Source: Pseudoleptotrichia goodfellowii (GTDB lineage Bacteria; Fusobacteriota; Fusobacteriia; Fusobacteriales; Leptotrichiaceae). From it: DNA of 64,000 nt. The translations under genes and the position numbers were made by a program. The stretch is taken from the NCBI RefSeq assembly GCF_007990505.1, contig NZ_AP019822.1:310001-374000 (forward strand), read 5' to 3'. The notes under the pieces are model-generated. The model worked only from the letters and a program-made list of their open reading frames with translations, had not been told where the DNA came from and searched no databases. Below, in pieces: positions 37,066-47,886 of this stretch (the first letter of the stretch is position 1; each line of letters starts with the position of its first letter).

Positions 37066-37866
37066 ATGGCCAAAAAATTAATAAATAAAAAGGGGAATTA
37101 TACAACAATACAAAACGAATTAATAAATGACAAAAGCATATCTTTAAAGGCTAAGGGAATATTGCTATATATGCTGTCAAAACCATATGACTGGAAATAT
37201 AATCCAAAAGAAATAGCAGCAAATTCAAAAGACGGATTAGATTCAGTATACAGCGGGTTAAAAGAACTTATTGAAGCGGGATATGTAAGCCGAAAGCGAT
37301 ATGCTGACGGTAGGGTAGATTATTATGTTTTTGAAGATAAAAGCGAAAATGACATTGAGGATTTTTCTTTAAAAGAAGAAAACCCAAATCGGGAAAACCC
37401 AAATCGGGAAAACCCAAATCGGGAAAACCCAAATCGGGATTTTCCCGACGTATACAAAAGAAAGAATACTACTAAAGAAAGAAATATACTAAATACTGAA
37501 TATAACAAAAAAGAAAATAAAAAAGAAAGAAACGAAATTGATGATTATATAAACGCTGCTCAAAAAAGTGAGGAGTATAAAAATCTACTTTTTGAGTTTG
37601 TAAAATATAGAAAAAAGATAAAATTATCTTTAAAAACTCCAGGACCTCTTAAGACATTGATTAATTTCTTTCCGACAGAAGAACTTTTAAAAGAAGCTTT
37701 GGAATATATGGATATGTATAACTGGAGGACAGCTGAACCACAATGGATAGAAAATAAAAAGCAAGGAGGAAACAATAATGGTGGAAAGCGTGCAGGATAT
37801 AGCAAAACGAATGGAAAACATTCGGAAAAACCAGACTACTCAACGGGATTTGAAGACTGGAACTAA
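37066..37866 (+). CDS. Replication initiator-like winged-helix protein with internal iterons
   Basis: 266 residues. The N-terminal winged-helix domain includes YTTIQNELINDKSISLKAKGILLYMLSKP and SVYSGLKELIEAGYVSRKRY. A linker carries four tandem ENPNR repeats (about 105-124), encoded by 15-bp DNA repeats. The C-terminal part (YKNLLFEFVKYRKKIKLSLK... TAEPQWIENK) looks DnaD-like. The helicase-loader gene overlaps its last 89 bases. The layout mirrors lambda O: an origin inside the initiator gene, followed by the loader. Confidence 0.78.
   Translation: MAKKLINKKGNYTTIQNELINDKSISLKAKGILLYMLSKPYDWKYNPKEIAANSKDGLDSVYSGLKELIEAGYVSRKRYADGRVDYYVFEDKSENDIEDFSLKEENPNRENPNRENPNRENPNRDFPDVYKRKNTTKERNILNTEYNKKENKKERNEIDDYINAAQKSEEYKNLLFEFVKYRKKIKLSLKTPGPLKTLINFFPTEELLKEALEYMDMYNWRTAEPQWIENKKQGGNNNGGKRAGYSKTNGKHSEKPDYSTGFEDWN
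37379..37438 (+). repeat. Four exact 15-bp direct repeats (iterons)
   Basis: Unit AAAACCCAAATCGGG, four perfect copies without spacers at 37379, 37394, 37409 and 37424. They encode ENPNR in the host gene. The 15-bp length is in phase with codons but not with the helix turn. Confidence 0.9.
37379..37540 (+). other. Probable prophage replication origin
   Basis: The iterons are followed by the inverted repeat TCGGGA-TTT-TCCCGA (37434-37448) and then about 90 bases that are almost only A/G with T (37450-37540), a purine-biased AT-rich stretch suited to unwinding. Order and setting (inside the initiator gene, before the loader gene) match the lambda origin. Confidence 0.65.
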
Positions 37867-42446: not shown

Positions 42447-42602
42447 GTGAAAGAATTGAAATGTAAATTTTGCAAAAAAAAGAAAATGGAATACGAAATA
42501 AAAGGCGGAAGATTTAATTATGATTTCATATGTACGAGGTGCAAGAAAAGAAATATAGGAACAATAGTCGATAAAACTCATAAAAATACCCCGCAAGGTT
42601 GA
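42447..42602 (+). CDS. Com-like zinc-ribbon protein
   Basis: 51 residues from GTG 42447 (GGAGG upstream). LKCKFCKKKKMEYE and YDFICTRCKKRNIG give two CxxC knuckles as in Mu Com, a translational regulator of mom. The family match rests on the cysteine pattern and size only. Confidence 0.65.
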   Translation: MKELKCKFCKKKKMEYEIKGGRFNYDFICTRCKKRNIGTIVDKTHKNTPQG

Positions 42603-42612
42603 GGTCTGATGT

Positions 42613-42669
42613 TTAAAATAAATTGTAACTGATAAACAAAAAAATCAGTACAACTGCTATTTTAAGCAT
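42613..42669 (-). CDS. Candidate type I toxin: 18-residue hydrophobic peptide
   Basis: MLKIAVVLIFLFISYNLF, a single membrane-spanning peptide. The ribosome site AAGGAGG (42683-42677) is perfect and spaced 7 bases from the ATG, which is strong for so short a frame. Size, short charged start and hydrophobic body resemble the 18-19-residue Ibs toxins of enterobacterial Ibs/Sib pairs. It is on the strand opposite to the surrounding phage genes. A leftward small-RNA unit lies just upstream with a 15-nt complement to its leader. Confidence 0.55.
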   Translation of the reverse strand: MLKIAVVLIFLFISYNLF

Positions 42670-42680
42670 TACAGTACCTC

Positions 42681-42695
42681 CTTATAAAAATATAG
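42681..42695. repeat. Arm 1 of a 15-bp perfect inverted repeat (toxin leader)
   Basis: CTTATAAAAATATAG on +, perfect complement of 42766-42780. In the minus-strand mRNA it directly precedes and touches the ribosome site of the 18-residue peptide. Confidence 0.8.
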
Positions 42696-42717
42696 TGGCT
42701 TTTTGGAAGCCAAAATT

Positions 42718-42723
42718 ATTATA
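42718..42723 (-). promoter_or_regulatory. Extended -10 promoter of the candidate toxin mRNA
   Basis: TGTTATAAT on the minus strand: TATAAT with an upstream TG at the extended -10 position. The -35 region is poor. A start near 42711 gives a leader with a GGCTT/AAGCC hairpin at its 5' end. Confidence 0.5.
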
Positions 42724-42725
42724 AC

Positions 42726-42752
42726 AAAAAAGACTGGAAAACACCAGCCTTT
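42726..42752 (-). terminator. Intrinsic terminator of the candidate small RNA
   Basis: Minus-strand stem AAAGGCTGG/CCAGTCTTT (G-U at one position), loop TGTTTT, then TTTTTT. It lies immediately before the toxin promoter. Confidence 0.75.
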
Positions 42753-42765
42753 AATCCAAAAATTT

Positions 42766-42780
42766 CTATATTTTTATAAG
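42766..42780. repeat. Arm 2 of the 15-bp perfect inverted repeat (small RNA)
   Basis: CTATATTTTTATAAG on +, 70 bases from arm 1. Located in the middle of the small-RNA unit. Confidence 0.8.
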
Positions 42781-42813
42781 TTCCCTTTACGGGGTTTGTC
42801 TTAAGACAAATGT

Positions 42814-42842
42814 ATTGTATCATAATTTTTTAAAAAAATCAA
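42814..42842 (-). promoter_or_regulatory. Leftward promoter of the candidate small RNA
   Basis: Minus strand TTGATT (42842-42837), 17-nt spacer, TACAAT (42819-42814). The 16-base palindrome TTTGTCTTAAGACAAA (42795-42810) covers the expected start and may be an operator. Confidence 0.6.
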
Positions 42843-42851
42843 AAATTTTTG

Positions 42852-42895
42852 TTGACAAATTAGTCCCAGATATGATATAAAAAATTGGGACTAAT
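42852..42895 (+). promoter_or_regulatory. Promoter and inverted-repeat operator of the AbrB-like gene
   Basis: TTGACA (42852-42857), 18-nt spacer, TATAAA (42876-42881). The perfect 10-base arms ATTAGTCCCA (42859-42868) and TGGGACTAAT (42886-42895) embrace the -10 box, as expected for an autoregulator. Confidence 0.7.
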
Positions 42896-42909: not shown

Positions 42910-43080
42910 ATGGAAAAAAGAAAATTAAATATCTCTTTCTATAAAGCAGGAACAGGTAAGGCAACGAGATTAACCGTTCCAATAAAGTGGCTAAGAGAAT
43001 TAGGTATAACAGAAGATGAAAAAAGTATTGACCTAATTTTTGATAGAGAAAATCAGCAACTTATAATAAAAAAGAGATAA
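42910..43080 (+). CDS. AbrB/SpoVT-like small DNA-binding protein
   Basis: 56 residues, MEKRKLNISFYKAGTGKATR then LTVPIKWLRELGITEDEKSIDLIFD and LIIKKR. The strand-helix-strand layout (x-R-x-x-VPxxWxxxLGI-x-x..xvxl) is that of AbrB swapped-hairpin domains, often antitoxins. No toxin-like partner of type II lies next to it. Has its own promoter with dyad operator. Confidence 0.75.
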   Translation: MEKRKLNISFYKAGTGKATRLTVPIKWLRELGITEDEKSIDLIFDRENQQLIIKKR

Positions 43081-43195: not shown

Positions 43196-43867
43196 ATGAA
43201 ATTATTAGAATGCAAAGAAAATAAAAATGTGAGAGAAATTAAATTTGATGGGAAATCTATTGTTACAGTGTTGATTGGCAACAAGGTATATGTATCGGTA
43301 AAAAGCATTTGCAAGAATTTAGGAATGGATAAGAATTTATCAGATACTCAAATTAAAAAAATTAATAAAGATGAGCTTTTGAAAGGTGCGTCAAAATTAA
43401 CGCACCTCAAAACAAACGGAGGAACACAACAGGTTTTAATGATAGAACTTGATTATTTGCCAATTTGGTTAGCGAAGATAAATCTGTCGAGATTTACAGA
43501 AGAACTAAAAGAACAATTATTAAATTACCAGTTAAGGGCTAAAGATGTATTAGCCGATGAATTTTTAGGGAAAAGAAAGCTTGAAAATAAAGTCCGATAT
43601 GAGCCTGAACTAAATGAAATTGAGGACAGATCAAAAAGAATAAGAAAAAATCAGGATATTGTAAGAAGTTTGCTAATCCAAATAGCAAATGATTATGATT
43701 GGATAAAATATAGAGCAGGTCTTGGTTTTCAAAGAGCGAAATTTAACTATAAAGAAAGCAAAAGAACAGCATTTATTCTTGAAGGTAAAGAACTCACTAT
43801 AGAAGATATTGACAAATTAAATACTGATAGCTTAAAAAGAACAGAAAAAGAATTGAATGAAATTTAA
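43196..43867 (+). CDS. Phage antirepressor N-terminal domain protein (P22_AR_N type)
   Basis: 223 residues. FDGKSIVTVLIGNKVYVSVKSICKNLGMD and QVLMIELDYLPIWLAKINLSRFTEELKEQLLNYQLRAKDVLADEF match P22_AR_N. The C-terminal part is helical and different from ORF6C. Third antirepressor-like gene of the prophage. A 115-base leader with several short hairpins (AAACTCCT/AGGAGTTT among them) separates it from the AbrB-like gene. Confidence 0.82.
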   Translation: MKLLECKENKNVREIKFDGKSIVTVLIGNKVYVSVKSICKNLGMDKNLSDTQIKKINKDELLKGASKLTHLKTNGGTQQVLMIELDYLPIWLAKINLSRFTEELKEQLLNYQLRAKDVLADEFLGKRKLENKVRYEPELNEIEDRSKRIRKNQDIVRSLLIQIANDYDWIKYRAGLGFQRAKFNYKESKRTAFILEGKELTIEDIDKLNTDSLKRTEKELNEI

Positions 43868-44635: not shown

Positions 44636-45334
44636 GTGTACGAAGACATAAAACCGTTAATTAAAGATGAGTACGAAAACGGAACAAGTATGAGTGTACT
44701 GTCGAAAAAATATAATACAAATCTCAGCAGTATAAAGAAGTGGAGTTCTCAAGAAAATTGGATTAAAAAAAAACAAAATAAGGTAACCAAAAATAAAAGT
44801 AACCGAACCAAAAAAAGTAACCAAAATAATTCGGTTACTTTAGACAGAGAAACGCAGATAAAAAAAGATATTCTTAAAGGGAAAAGTAAAAAAGAGATAA
44901 TGTCGGAATATGACATATCGGAAAGAACGTATCAAAGAAAAGCTAAGAGCATAAGACAAGCAAGACTGGAAAAGACGGAACGATATTTAGATATGATAGC
45001 GGAAAAAGTTTACCCAGATTTGGAATCCGTTTTGGAGAACACTGAAAAGGCGAAAAGGAACTTAGTTGTGCGTTCGATTAAAGAGGTAGGCAACCAAGAA
45101 ACCGATATTAAAAAGATACAAGAATACAACAAAGCTTTTAACTCTATCAAGCAAATGGCGAACGATATAATGAGGACTGGAAAAATACTAACACCATTTG
45201 AGCTACTCGAAATAGATAAGCAATTATCAGAGGAAGAATTACAACAGCAAAAAATTGATGTTGAAAAAAATAAAAATTTGATAACAGAAGAATTTGAACA
45301 GGTAGTGATAGTGGATGACACAGATAAAGATTAA
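44636..45334 (+). CDS. terS: Terminase small subunit
   Basis: 232 residues from GTG 44636. The N-terminal HTH DEYENGTSMSVLSKKYNTNLSSIKKWSSQENW is the DUF1804/PBSX-type DNA-binding domain; a second HTH-like unit (KSKKEIMSEYDISERTYQRKAKSIRQARLEKTERYLD) follows, with an acidic helical end. AGGAGGG lies 9 bases before GTG; the closer ATGs at 44631 and 44634 are out of frame and end after a few codons. Overlaps terL by 20 bases. Confidence 0.85.
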   Translation: MYEDIKPLIKDEYENGTSMSVLSKKYNTNLSSIKKWSSQENWIKKKQNKVTKNKSNRTKKSNQNNSVTLDRETQIKKDILKGKSKKEIMSEYDISERTYQRKAKSIRQARLEKTERYLDMIAEKVYPDLESVLENTEKAKRNLVVRSIKEVGNQETDIKKIQEYNKAFNSIKQMANDIMRTGKILTPFELLEIDKQLSEEELQQQKIDVEKNKNLITEEFEQVVIVDDTDKD

Positions 45335-46574
45335 AGACATTATTGGTTGTAATTATGACAAATTCTGGAATGATAAACATTTTTATAGAGTTGTAAAAGG
45401 TTCAAGAGGTAGTAAGAAAAGTAAAACGATAGCAATAAATATGATTTACAGGATTATGAAATACCCTGAAAGCAATTTGCTTGTAATAAGAAGGGTGTTC
45501 AATACTTTAAGAAACAGTTGTAGAGCTGATTTGATTTGGGCGATTAACAAGTTAAAAGTAAATCGTTTATGGAAAATCCCCAAAGGAGAACATACTTTGA
45601 CTTATTTGCCGACAGGACAACAGATATTGTTTGCCGGATTAGACGATCCGCTAAAATTGACATCAATAACAGTAGCGAACGGATATTTGAATTTTGTCTG
45701 GATCGAAGAATGTTTTCAAATTGAAAAACAAGAGATGTTTGACACTCTTGAAGAAAGTATAAGGGGTAAGCTCCCTGACGGACTTTTCCATCAAATTACA
45801 TTAAGTTTTAATCCATGGTCAGAAGATCACTGGCTAAGAAAAAGATTTTATAACGATACGTATGATAGAACATATATAGATGATCTAATATATGCTATTA
45901 CAACTGACTATACAATGAATGAATTTTTGGATGAAGTAACAATAAAAAGATTTGAGGAAATGAAAACTAAAAATCCAAACAGATTCAAAGTTGCAGGAAT
46001 GGGCGAATGGGGAATAGCGGAAGGACTTGTTTATGACAACTGGGAAATACTTGAGTTTAATGCTTTATTGATGTTAAGGACCAATTTTAAATTAGAAGCA
46101 GTGTTCGGACTTGACTTCGGATTTACTAACGATAATACAGCATTTGTAGCAAGTATAGTCGATTTAGAAAACAAACGATTATATATATTTGATGAATTTT
46201 ATGCAAGAGGAATGTTGAACAATGAAATAGCCTTAGAAATAGAAAGGCGAGGTTATTCAAAAGATGAAATTATAGCTGATAGTGCCGAACAAAAGTCAAT
46301 TGAAGAAATAAAGAGGCTTGGAATTTCAAGAATAAAAGCAGCTTCAAAAGGAAAAGGAAGCGTTAATCAGGGGATACAATATTTACAACAATTCGATATA
46401 TATGTACATCCAAAATGTAGGAATGTGATAATGGAACTAAAAAATTATATTTGGGACGTAGATAAAAACGGAAATACATTAAATAAACCAATCGATAGTT
46501 ACAATCATGCACTTGATGCATTACGTTATTCTATTGAAAAATATAGTGTCGGAGGAATGCACGGTATATTATAG
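45315..46574 (+). CDS. terL: Terminase large subunit (PBSX/Terminase_3 type)
   Basis: 419 residues. Walker A-like VVKGSRGSKKSKT (about 26-38), Walker B YLNFVWIEEC, coupling motif TLSFNPWSEDHW, and nuclease motifs GLDFGFTNDNTAF and ADSAEQKSIEEIK plus HALDALRYSIEKY. It cuts and pumps DNA into the prohead. Complete length for this family. Confidence 0.95.
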   Translation: MTQIKIKDIIGCNYDKFWNDKHFYRVVKGSRGSKKSKTIAINMIYRIMKYPESNLLVIRRVFNTLRNSCRADLIWAINKLKVNRLWKIPKGEHTLTYLPTGQQILFAGLDDPLKLTSITVANGYLNFVWIEECFQIEKQEMFDTLEESIRGKLPDGLFHQITLSFNPWSEDHWLRKRFYNDTYDRTYIDDLIYAITTDYTMNEFLDEVTIKRFEEMKTKNPNRFKVAGMGEWGIAEGLVYDNWEILEFNALLMLRTNFKLEAVFGLDFGFTNDNTAFVASIVDLENKRLYIFDEFYARGMLNNEIALEIERRGYSKDEIIADSAEQKSIEEIKRLGISRIKAASKGKGSVNQGIQYLQQFDIYVHPKCRNVIMELKNYIWDVDKNGNTLNKPIDSYNHALDALRYSIEKYSVGGMHGIL

Positions 46575-46584
46575 GAGAATATAA

Positions 46585-47886
46585 ATGAACAAAAAAAAGA
46601 AAAAATATAATGGATTCGCGAGTAACGCAAGGAATAGTACAAAAGGAACGGAAAGAGATACGCTAAATAGACAAATTCCTGTGAAAAAATATTTGAGTGT
46701 AGAGATGATAGATGACTTAATCGCAAGTAATGAATTTGCAAAAATAATACTGAATGCTCCGATAGAAGATGTTTTAAAAAATGGACTTGATATTGCAATT
46801 TTACAAGATGATGGAACGGATGATATAGAAAGTACAAAAAAACTGAAAGAAAAATTAGATAAACTTGATTATCTTGAAAAAATAATGAATTTTATGTCAG
46901 AAGTTCGTAAACATGGATATGCGATTATGTATTTGAATACGCTACATAATATTGAGACAGAAACGGCGGATGAACTCGGAGAGAGATTTCAAATTGAAGC
47001 TTTAAATATATTTAGCAAATCCGAAATAGCAAAACTAAAACTCGAAAACTCGAAATTATCTCTGAAGTACGGAGAAATAAAAGAATTGCAGATAAAGAAC
47101 TATAAAGATAATAATCAGGTAATAAATACCGAAATACATCCGAGCCGTGTCGTTTTTTCAAGAATAAATGAGGATAAAAAAGAGATAGGACAATCAATAT
47201 TTAATTCTCTTTTTGAAAGAATGGTAATATTTGATAGTACGGAATGGAGTATTGGGCAGTTAATATATAGAGCTGTATTTCTAATTTTAAAGACGGACAA
47301 CGCTACAATGGATAAAATAAAAGAAAGCGGAGGAATAAGAGATAAAGAAGAAGAAATAAATGCTTCGACTTTGGCAGTAATAGGACAAGATGACGAATTA
47401 CAAGTAATAAACTCAACTGGGGGATTGGATCCTGAAAAATTTATAAATGCAGTTTTAACTATATTATCAATACATACAAATATTCCGAAACAGAGACTCG
47501 CAGGAAATACTCAAGGAACACTTGCGGGATCACAAGAAGATGCTAAAAAATACGCCGAATACTTAAAAAGATTTTTTAATAAGCACATTCTTCCTGTTAT
47601 CAACAGCTTAATTGACAAAGTATTAATTGAACTTAAAATATCGCAATCATATAGAGTGAGTCTACCAAATTTACTCGAACCGACAGAGTCAGAACAAATA
47701 GAAAACAGCTTAAAAAAAGTTGAATTAGATACTAAAAAACTTGAGTATTTAGAAAAGGCAGTAAACATTATATCTAATAATGAACTTATAGAAAAAAAAG
47801 ATAAAGTTGCAGAAATAATTAAAAGGCTTGGAGAAGATGATTTTGATTTTGAAGCACTGTTGAAAGAGTTGAGTGAAAATGATTGA
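46585..47886 (+). CDS. Portal protein (DUF1073 / Phage_portal_3 type)
   Basis: 433 residues. FAKIILNAPIEDVLKNGLDI, FMSEVRKHGYAIMYL, HPSRVVFSRI and the long C-terminal helical part with PKQRLAGNTQGTLAGSQEDAKKYAEYLKRFF (the typical PxxrLfG-x-s-p-gG...d...Y) fit DUF1073 portals. Forms the dodecameric vertex for DNA entry. Confidence 0.88.
   Translation: MNKKKKKYNGFASNARNSTKGTERDTLNRQIPVKKYLSVEMIDDLIASNEFAKIILNAPIEDVLKNGLDIAILQDDGTDDIESTKKLKEKLDKLDYLEKIMNFMSEVRKHGYAIMYLNTLHNIETETADELGERFQIEALNIFSKSEIAKLKLENSKLSLKYGEIKELQIKNYKDNNQVINTEIHPSRVVFSRINEDKKEIGQSIFNSLFERMVIFDSTEWSIGQLIYRAVFLILKTDNATMDKIKESGGIRDKEEEINASTLAVIGQDDELQVINSTGGLDPEKFINAVLTILSIHTNIPKQRLAGNTQGTLAGSQEDAKKYAEYLKRFFNKHILPVINSLIDKVLIELKISQSYRVSLPNLLEPTESEQIENSLKKVELDTKKLEYLEKAVNIISNNELIEKKDKVAEIIKRLGEDDFDFEALLKELSEND

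Follow-up and report, generated by a model that had tools for sequence, protein, structure and literature searches.

A candidate type I-like toxin-antitoxin module with a tandem antitoxin RNA in a Pseudoleptotrichia goodfellowii prophage and its relatives in Fusobacteriales

A small RNA and a hydrophobic peptide gene in tandem

We analyzed 64,000 nucleotides (nt) of the Pseudoleptotrichia goodfellowii genome (NZ_AP019822.1, positions 310,001-374,000; this whole stretch is the window, and its own positions are used below), in which a small RNA unit and a gene for an 18-residue hydrophobic peptide follow one another on the minus strand. The arrangement is probably a type I-like toxin-antitoxin module in which the antitoxin gene precedes the toxin gene in tandem on the same strand, and its relatives point to RNA-controlled toxin switches of a previously unrecognized family. 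The best reading of these loci would be a new family of type I-like modules. Rfam gave no match at threshold, and the peptides of at least 20 residues matched no toxin family of Pfam or NCBIfam. With less confidence, we lean toward an order-wide type I family in the Fusobacteriota, marked by a tandem antitoxin RNA, a terminator that doubles as toxin promoter, recognition through three segments, and arms that diversify copy by copy like private codes (many modules per cell, arrays, and occasional partner exchange). The elements of the window module, as read from the sequence, are as follows; ORF denotes open reading frame, and GRAVY the grand average of hydropathy.

42814..42842, minus strand: P1, small RNA promoter, TTGATT-17-TACAAT; TTGAC and TATAAT in many relatives
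42783..42795, minus strand: E1, ACCCCGTAAAGGG, close to the small RNA's 5' end; its complement is an element of the mRNA tail
42766..42780, minus strand: arm 2 of the small RNA, CTTATAAAAATATAG, 15-nt perfect complement of arm 1
42755..42762, minus strand: E3, TTTTTGGA, complement of the leader hairpin loop
42726..42752, minus strand: intrinsic terminator of the small RNA, 9-pair stem (42752-42744/42737-42729) and six T to 42726
42718..42726, minus strand: P2, extended -10 of the peptide mRNA, TGTTATAAT (TATAAT 42723-42718, TG 42726-42725)
42697..42711, minus strand: leader hairpin GGCT-TCCAAAA-AGCC, its loop side (42707-42700) complementary to E3
42681..42695, minus strand: arm 1, CTATATTTTTATAAG, complement of arm 2, extending into the ribosome site
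42677..42683, minus strand: ribosome-binding site AAGGAGG, 7 bases from the ATG
42613..42669, minus strand: ORF of the 18-residue hydrophobic peptide MLKIAVVLIFLFISYNLF, GRAVY 2.2, the proposed toxin
42588..42605, minus strand: mRNA tail, ACCTCAACCTTGCGGGGT; its ACCTC can sequester the ribosome site, and the remainder complements E1

In the proposed mechanism, transcription from P1 would produce a short terminated RNA of about 80 nt, and P2 would drive a separate mRNA for the short hydrophobic peptide. The small RNA would bind the mRNA in antiparallel orientation at up to three places, namely the loop of the leader hairpin (by E3), the 15-nt arm at the ribosome site, and the tail (by E1), which would block translation and probably lead to cleavage of the duplex. 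The ACCTC of the mRNA tail may pair with the ribosome site, leaving arm 1 as an exposed landing stretch that the small RNA would cover. Loss or dilution of the RNA would let the peptide be made, and the peptide would probably harm the membrane; the module could serve addiction or a response to phage. Membership of type I calls for toxicity and its neutralization, which are proposed here from sequence.

A preliminary description of this DNA had given the peptide ORF (42669-42613), the AAGGAGG at 7-base spacing and the extended -10 correctly to the base, and the small RNA unit that it proposed (TTGATT-17-TACAAT at 42842-42814, with a 9-pair terminator and six U) lies where it was placed. The 15-nt arms that it had named (42780-42766 and 42695-42681) are perfectly complementary. 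The description did not list the tail element at 42605-42588, further copies in the same genome, or a second complementarity beyond the arms, between E3 (42762-42755) and the loop of the leader hairpin (42707-42700). In the window unit P2 overlaps the end of the terminator T-run. In the predicted fold of the window mRNA, the leader hairpin and the closed ribosome site leave arm 1 unpaired between them; arm 1 may be the landing place of ribosomes or of the small RNA. Apart from the arm match, the 64-kb window holds no 15-nt inverted repeat at an offset of 40 to 150, and the longest perfect complement in 2,000 dinucleotide shuffles of the RNA body was 12 nt (0/2,000 reached 15 nt).

Relatives in two families

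Relatives were gathered without regard to the arms, using the terminator end and the extended -10 as the anchor. With the pattern GNCTTTTTTGTTATAAT, 20 of the 33 genomes of the window's family had 46 hits in total, compared with 5 hits for the reversed control pattern. The pattern CCAGNCTTTTTTGNTATAAT with one mismatch was found in 19 of the order's 96 genomes, and 18 of these belong to the window's family. Sixty-one distinct anchor sites were extracted, and 34 of them were taken as units by their ribosome site and an ORF of 14-30 codons. The 27 sites dropped by this rule were one truncated duplicate of a unit, several peptide-less RNA halves, and others like ordinary terminator-promoter pairs.

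A covariance model was built from 24 units (163 positions), with pairs restricted to the terminator and the leader hairpin, since the arms did not stay in register in MAFFT alignments. Searching the 96 genomes of the order with the model yielded 109 matches (rough E-values, up to 0.01) spread over 30 genomes, which are 22 of the 33 genomes of the window's family and 8 of a second family, presumably the Fusobacteriaceae. Some of the 109 matches are decayed, and genomes G012 and G014 each carry a single damaged copy. All 34 units were among the matches; 63 further ones were extracted (97 in total), and 12 were excluded from the pairing tests, including several peptide-less RNA halves as well as G019:C1:1340762 and G017:C78:677, which are full units by eye. 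An ORF was present in 88 of the 97 units. The module predates the split of the two families or moved between them. When 98 genomes of the phylum were searched at E 1e-4, the model matched in 23, none of them outside the order, where 2 of the 98 genomes lie.

The window's own genome (one contig, 2,290,729 bases) gave 6 matches to a 301-base query, including the window unit itself. Four of the five other copies (L002, L003, L004, and L006) have the full layout, and L005 is an RNA half only. The arms of these copies differ from those of the window and among themselves, yet by eye they fit their own partners: the match is 14 nt and perfect in L002 and L003, and it is 15 nt in L004 and 13 nt in L006, with one G-U pair each. 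With the later covariance model this genome had 8 matches, down to one at E 0.009.

Locus-specific pairing between RNA and leader

In the 34 units, the duplex of each RNA with its own leader had a mean energy of -23.3 kcal/mol (range -32.3 to -8.7), compared with -13.0 (standard deviation [SD] 3.5) for swapped combinations. The own leader ranked first of 34 in 23 units and first or second in 28, and the observed mean was reached in 0/20,000 permutations. The same was found for the 17 units with dissimilar arms (-23.4 versus -13.0 swapped, 13/17 first, 0/20,000 permutations). When the arms alone were compared in 88 units, own pairs gave -17.4 and swapped pairs -7.5 (SD 2.6), and the own partner was first in 67/88 and among the top three in 79/88. 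E3 also preferred its own leader hairpin with arm 1 excluded (34 units; -7.7 own versus -4.5 swapped, 0/20,000 permutations, first in 16/34). Locus-specific complementarity is kept while the letters change, and the co-variation of the peptide with complementary arms in relatives, suggested as a check in the preliminary description, was borne out by the 34-unit and 88-unit tests.

For E1 and the tail, whole regions showed no clear own advantage (own -18.2, swapped -17.2, SD 5.9). In the 53 of 88 units where both short elements could be excised, the own pairs were better, with 0/5,000 permutations overall, 12/5,000 within the first group and 36/5,000 within the second group, counts that ignore relatedness. 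Because relatedness stays in these counts, we grade the E1-tail pairing as likely. E1 could not be excised from any unit of g9 (three genomes with matches). In the second family, E1 and the tail carry other letters and again largely match (CCCGTATGGG with CCCTACGGGG, versus CCCTAAGGG with CCCTTAGGGG). CCTC was found in the tail of 74 of the 88 units, compared with 20% expected in shuffled tails.

At second-family loci (L298, L295, L307, L309, and others) a long hairpin lies between the arms, and by eye the leader-loop segment co-varies (GTTCA/TGAAC versus GCTTA/TAAGC).

Partner exchange between neighboring units

Four of the 34 units ranked worse than fourth in the pairing test: L030 (rank 9), L037-1223 (34), L039 (13), and L053-1517 (30). 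Each of these misfit leaders, picked after the ranks were known, was tried against 97 RNA bodies. The leader of L030 gave -15.7 with its own RNA and -27.6 with that of a unit that lacks a peptide and lies about 440 bases upstream. For the leader of L037-1223 the values were -8.7 with its own RNA and -23.8 with that of the next unit upstream in a tandem array, likewise peptide-less. In genome G017 (C78:677) the leader arm of L037-1223 stands, by eye, beside its fitting RNA, and this locus looks like the ancestral unit of the leader.

The other two misfits, L039 and L053-1517, are separated by 1.8 kb in genome G018 (581251 and 583072) and fit crosswise in both the arm and the loop segment, with energies of -24.2 and -27.7 for the crosswise leaders and -11.1 and -9.5 for their own pairs. 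The crosswise fit may come from misassembly between repeats, against which stands the length of the contig (2.3 Mb). The same-genome partner was the best of 97 for three of the four misfits; L039 had two or three equal or slightly better partners among the RNAs of other genomes (-24.9, -24.3, -24.2). Since the misfits find better partners in the same genome, two of them reciprocally, these loci argue for selection on pairing between separate RNAs, that is, in trans, and would be natural evidence of it.

Array and orphan copies were seen as well. L275 (G015:C1:1942800-1944900) holds five or more units or remnants in a tandem array at a spacing of about 290-300 bases, with decayed and peptide-less members. 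By eye, L005, L032, L033, L035, L036, L054, and L086 have a promoter and a terminator without a peptide ORF and resemble orphan antitoxin RNAs.

The peptides

The ratio of nonsynonymous to synonymous differences (pN/pS) was 0.29-0.53 in six groups of aligned ORFs from relatives, which leave out the window peptide; these values indicate purifying selection, and because of them the peptides appear to be kept as proteins. The 88 ORFs encode 14-38 residues, and GRAVY is positive in 87 of them, with a mean of 1.45 (2.2 for the window peptide). Second-family peptides are mostly longer (29-36 residues), and one of their frames is cut short.

Of 8 peptides of at least 20 residues, a set that the 18-residue window peptide falls outside, none matched a Pfam toxin family at E up to 10, and NCBIfam gave one unrelated hit (E 0.13) and no toxin family among 7 peptides. 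With the window stretch, the best Rfam match was STnc390, below threshold at 24.4 bits against a gathering score of 50 (E 0.034), and four relatives had no Rfam match at E up to 0.1. The sub-threshold STnc390 identity was rejected and taken as a resemblance between terminators.

Weighing of the alternatives

Several results weigh against a type I-like module. The preliminary description had expected the arm duplex to exceed shuffled controls, which held fully for length (none of 2,000 at 15 nt) and less fully for energy, where the value of -24.3 was reached by 4 of another 2,000 dinucleotide shuffles; by itself the duplex energy is good but not overwhelming, and the relatives decide. On arms alone, L294 ranks 73 of 88 and L042 ranks 23 of 88, the latter being first of 34 once the loop segment is included. 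Nine units have no ORF, and two of the 63 further units (L292 and L296) look doubtful. In the window's own genome, the L004 frame has 14 residues, and L006 reads ATT at the position of the relatives' ATG; this copy's peptide may be silent, or its translation may begin at a rare start codon. The group of the window peptide has two members with three codon differences, one of them synonymous, which is too few for a selection test. Folding paired the ribosome site with the tail at a mean of 0.66 (28/33 above 0.5), but shuffled tails reached 0.51 (56% above 0.5), so this evidence is modest, and conservation of the tail is the better argument for the pairing. The conservation of P2 is partly circular, since the first 34 units were found by a pattern containing P2. 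Among 42 model-only matches of the window's family, found by a model built from P2-selected units, the extended -10 is present in 19 and TATAAT in 30, and among 21 second-family matches neither the extended -10 nor a TATAAT stands before the leader (0/21 each).

It was considered that the antisense control is real and the peptide is a harmless small membrane protein, for example of stress or the envelope. This account overlaps with a toxin-antitoxin module in everything except toxicity, and purifying selection would fit any useful peptide. We judge it rather unlikely in view of the many copies per genome, the tandem arrays, the peptide-less RNA halves, and the multisite complementarity, and of sites beside prophage-type, ArdC, ParA, integrase, and restriction genes. 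Multiple copies, arrays, orphan RNA halves, mobile sites, and multisite complementarity are the usual marks of type I toxins.

On the other hand, a single transcript from P1 may read through the terminator-like hairpin, with arm 2 pairing with arm 1 in the same molecule and hiding the ribosome site, as in an attenuator or RNA switch. The arms flank the hairpin in an order suited to one long stem, and such a cis-acting leader keeps weight, above all in the second family, because the P2 conservation is partly circular and TATAAT is missing before the leader in all 21 second-family matches. Its pairing would make little sense of the reciprocal exchange in G018 or of the two leaders whose fitting RNA lies beyond the neighboring RNA upstream. 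RNA halves without a peptide frame also speak against it, as do the g9 copies L310, L311, and L313, in which the T-run and the -10 are apart and both are still present. We consider the cis-acting leader unlikely. A chance AT-rich inverted repeat beside a spurious short ORF is extremely improbable: AT-rich DNA does yield many short matches, and a few shuffles reached the duplex energy, but none reached 15 nt, and the module occurs in 30 of 96 genomes with its complementarity kept.

Genomic homes of the module

The window locus lies on the minus strand inside a prophage, with a large terminase gene (45315-46574), a portal gene (46585-47886), and a P22_AR_N antirepressor-type gene (43196-43867; Pfam) on the plus strand. 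A plus-strand frame at 42910-43080 is weakly MazE/AbrB-like (E 0.017, below the cut-off). Its divergent promoter region (42852-42895) has a TTGACA and an inverted repeat, TTAGTCCCA...TGGGACTAA, around the -10, which is likely an operator, and its -35 is about 10 bases from the -35 of P1. A public viral contig carries the window locus, with identical bases where compared by eye. The preliminary description had placed the pair in a phage, and the terminase and portal genes alongside agree with this, but the home is not phage specific: relatives stand in chromosomes and in prophage-type and other mobile regions, and a phage is one of several homes for the module.

Flanking genes of relatives were assigned by a Pfam search of ten genes and otherwise by eye. 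L040 and L047 adjoin HTH_36 genes whose ends resemble, by eye, the product of 37066-37866 in the window phage; the latter is a phage replication-type frame with a repeated NPNRE run. L031 adjoins an EF-Tu-domain GTPase gene (Pfam), which we take to be TypA-like, and by eye this gene also flanks L038, L039, L046, L065, L078, and L084, which makes it a common chromosomal site. L021 and L042 adjoin ArdC genes, L082 a ParA-type gene, and L004 an integrase gene, and L030 is near an S24 repressor gene. Two copies in the window's own genome adjoin type I restriction genes (for L002, the R subunit by Pfam; for L004, by eye).

When the window unit was compared with phages by BLASTN, 241 records had weak matches, 231 of them from Lactococcus, and 22% of the query was covered in the best matches listed. 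One phage match that we inspected spans the end of an annotated frame and the gap before the next, and is not an anchor site. Against plasmids, the window unit had one weak match (Buchnera) and one second-family peptide had none; of two relatives' units compared with phages, one gave a single weak Bacillus phage match and the other none. With the anchor pattern in viral contigs, the units among the matches listed were the window's phage contig (L007 and L207, the latter containing a 400-base piece of that contig) and L222, a Leptotrichia genome copy. A stricter anchor pattern in genome contigs gave 17 stretches, 5 of them from Leptotrichia.

A similar layout was seen in L211, an unrelated IMG/VR contig, on the minus strand near 1866: a promoter, the 12-nt segment CTCCTAAAAAAT, and a terminator overlapping TTTTTTGTTATAAT. 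The 12-nt segment complements the ribosome site of a longer gene.

Comparison with known systems

Diverged arm pairs, tandem arrays, RNA halves, and natural partner exchange would together make a data set on how antisense specificity evolves, and the peptides may have a part in maintaining phages and other mobile elements in fusobacteria.

TisB/IstR-1, ShoB/OhsC, Zor/Orz, DinQ/AgrB, and TimP/TimR share with the window module a small membrane peptide and an adjacent, nonoverlapping RNA complementary to the toxin leader. In TisB/IstR-type systems the genes are divergent (PMC4147584, PMC8167048), whereas here they are in tandem on the same strand. The preliminary description had called this layout unusual; the same-strand order is confirmed, but a review already names the parallel orientation among possible type I layouts (PMC8167048). 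Unlike in TisB/IstR-type systems, the terminator here overlaps the proposed toxin promoter and the pairing touches the ribosome site.

Ibs toxins are hydrophobic peptides of 18-19 residues, encoded in multiple copies in one genome. The window module resembles Ibs/Sib in its very short hydrophobic peptide, its multiple copies, and pairing over the start region. In Ibs/Sib, the Sib RNA is antisense to the ibs coding region and ribosome site (PMC4147584), whereas the RNA here is upstream on the same strand, though no search was made for a further RNA on the antisense strand. The type III system ToxIN also has an RNA antitoxin, a terminator, and a toxin gene on one strand (PMC4147584, PMC8167048), and type III systems have been reported in Fusobacteria (PMC4147584). 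ToxIN has tandem RNA repeats and an endonuclease toxin, unlike the 18-residue frame, the lack of repeats by eye, and the RNA matching the mRNA here. As models for the window module, TisB/IstR-type and Ibs/Sib systems fail on gene layout, and type III fails on the repeats and the kind of toxin. Fst/RNAII (par of pAD1) pairs through separate segments, repeats near the start and a shared terminator end, comparable to the proposed arm and tail segments here. The Fst/RNAII genes are convergent with a shared terminator (PMC4147584), whereas the genes here are in tandem, and their peptides of at least 20 residues have no Pfam toxin match.

In searches of open-licence papers, titles and abstract openings described no type I system of this sort for Fusobacterium or Leptotrichia. 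The type I candidate MsoT1/MsoA1 of Microcystis likewise lies outside the three classical phyla (PMC12390103). It differs in being cyanobacterial, and its RNA, looked for on the antisense strand, binds the toxin RNA in its 3' part (PMC12390103). According to that 2025 paper, no phyla other than Proteobacteria, Firmicutes, and Tenericutes were known to have type I systems until its cyanobacterial case, and a search bias is suspected (PMC12390103). A fusobacterial family of about 100 copies, if true, would support this suspicion.
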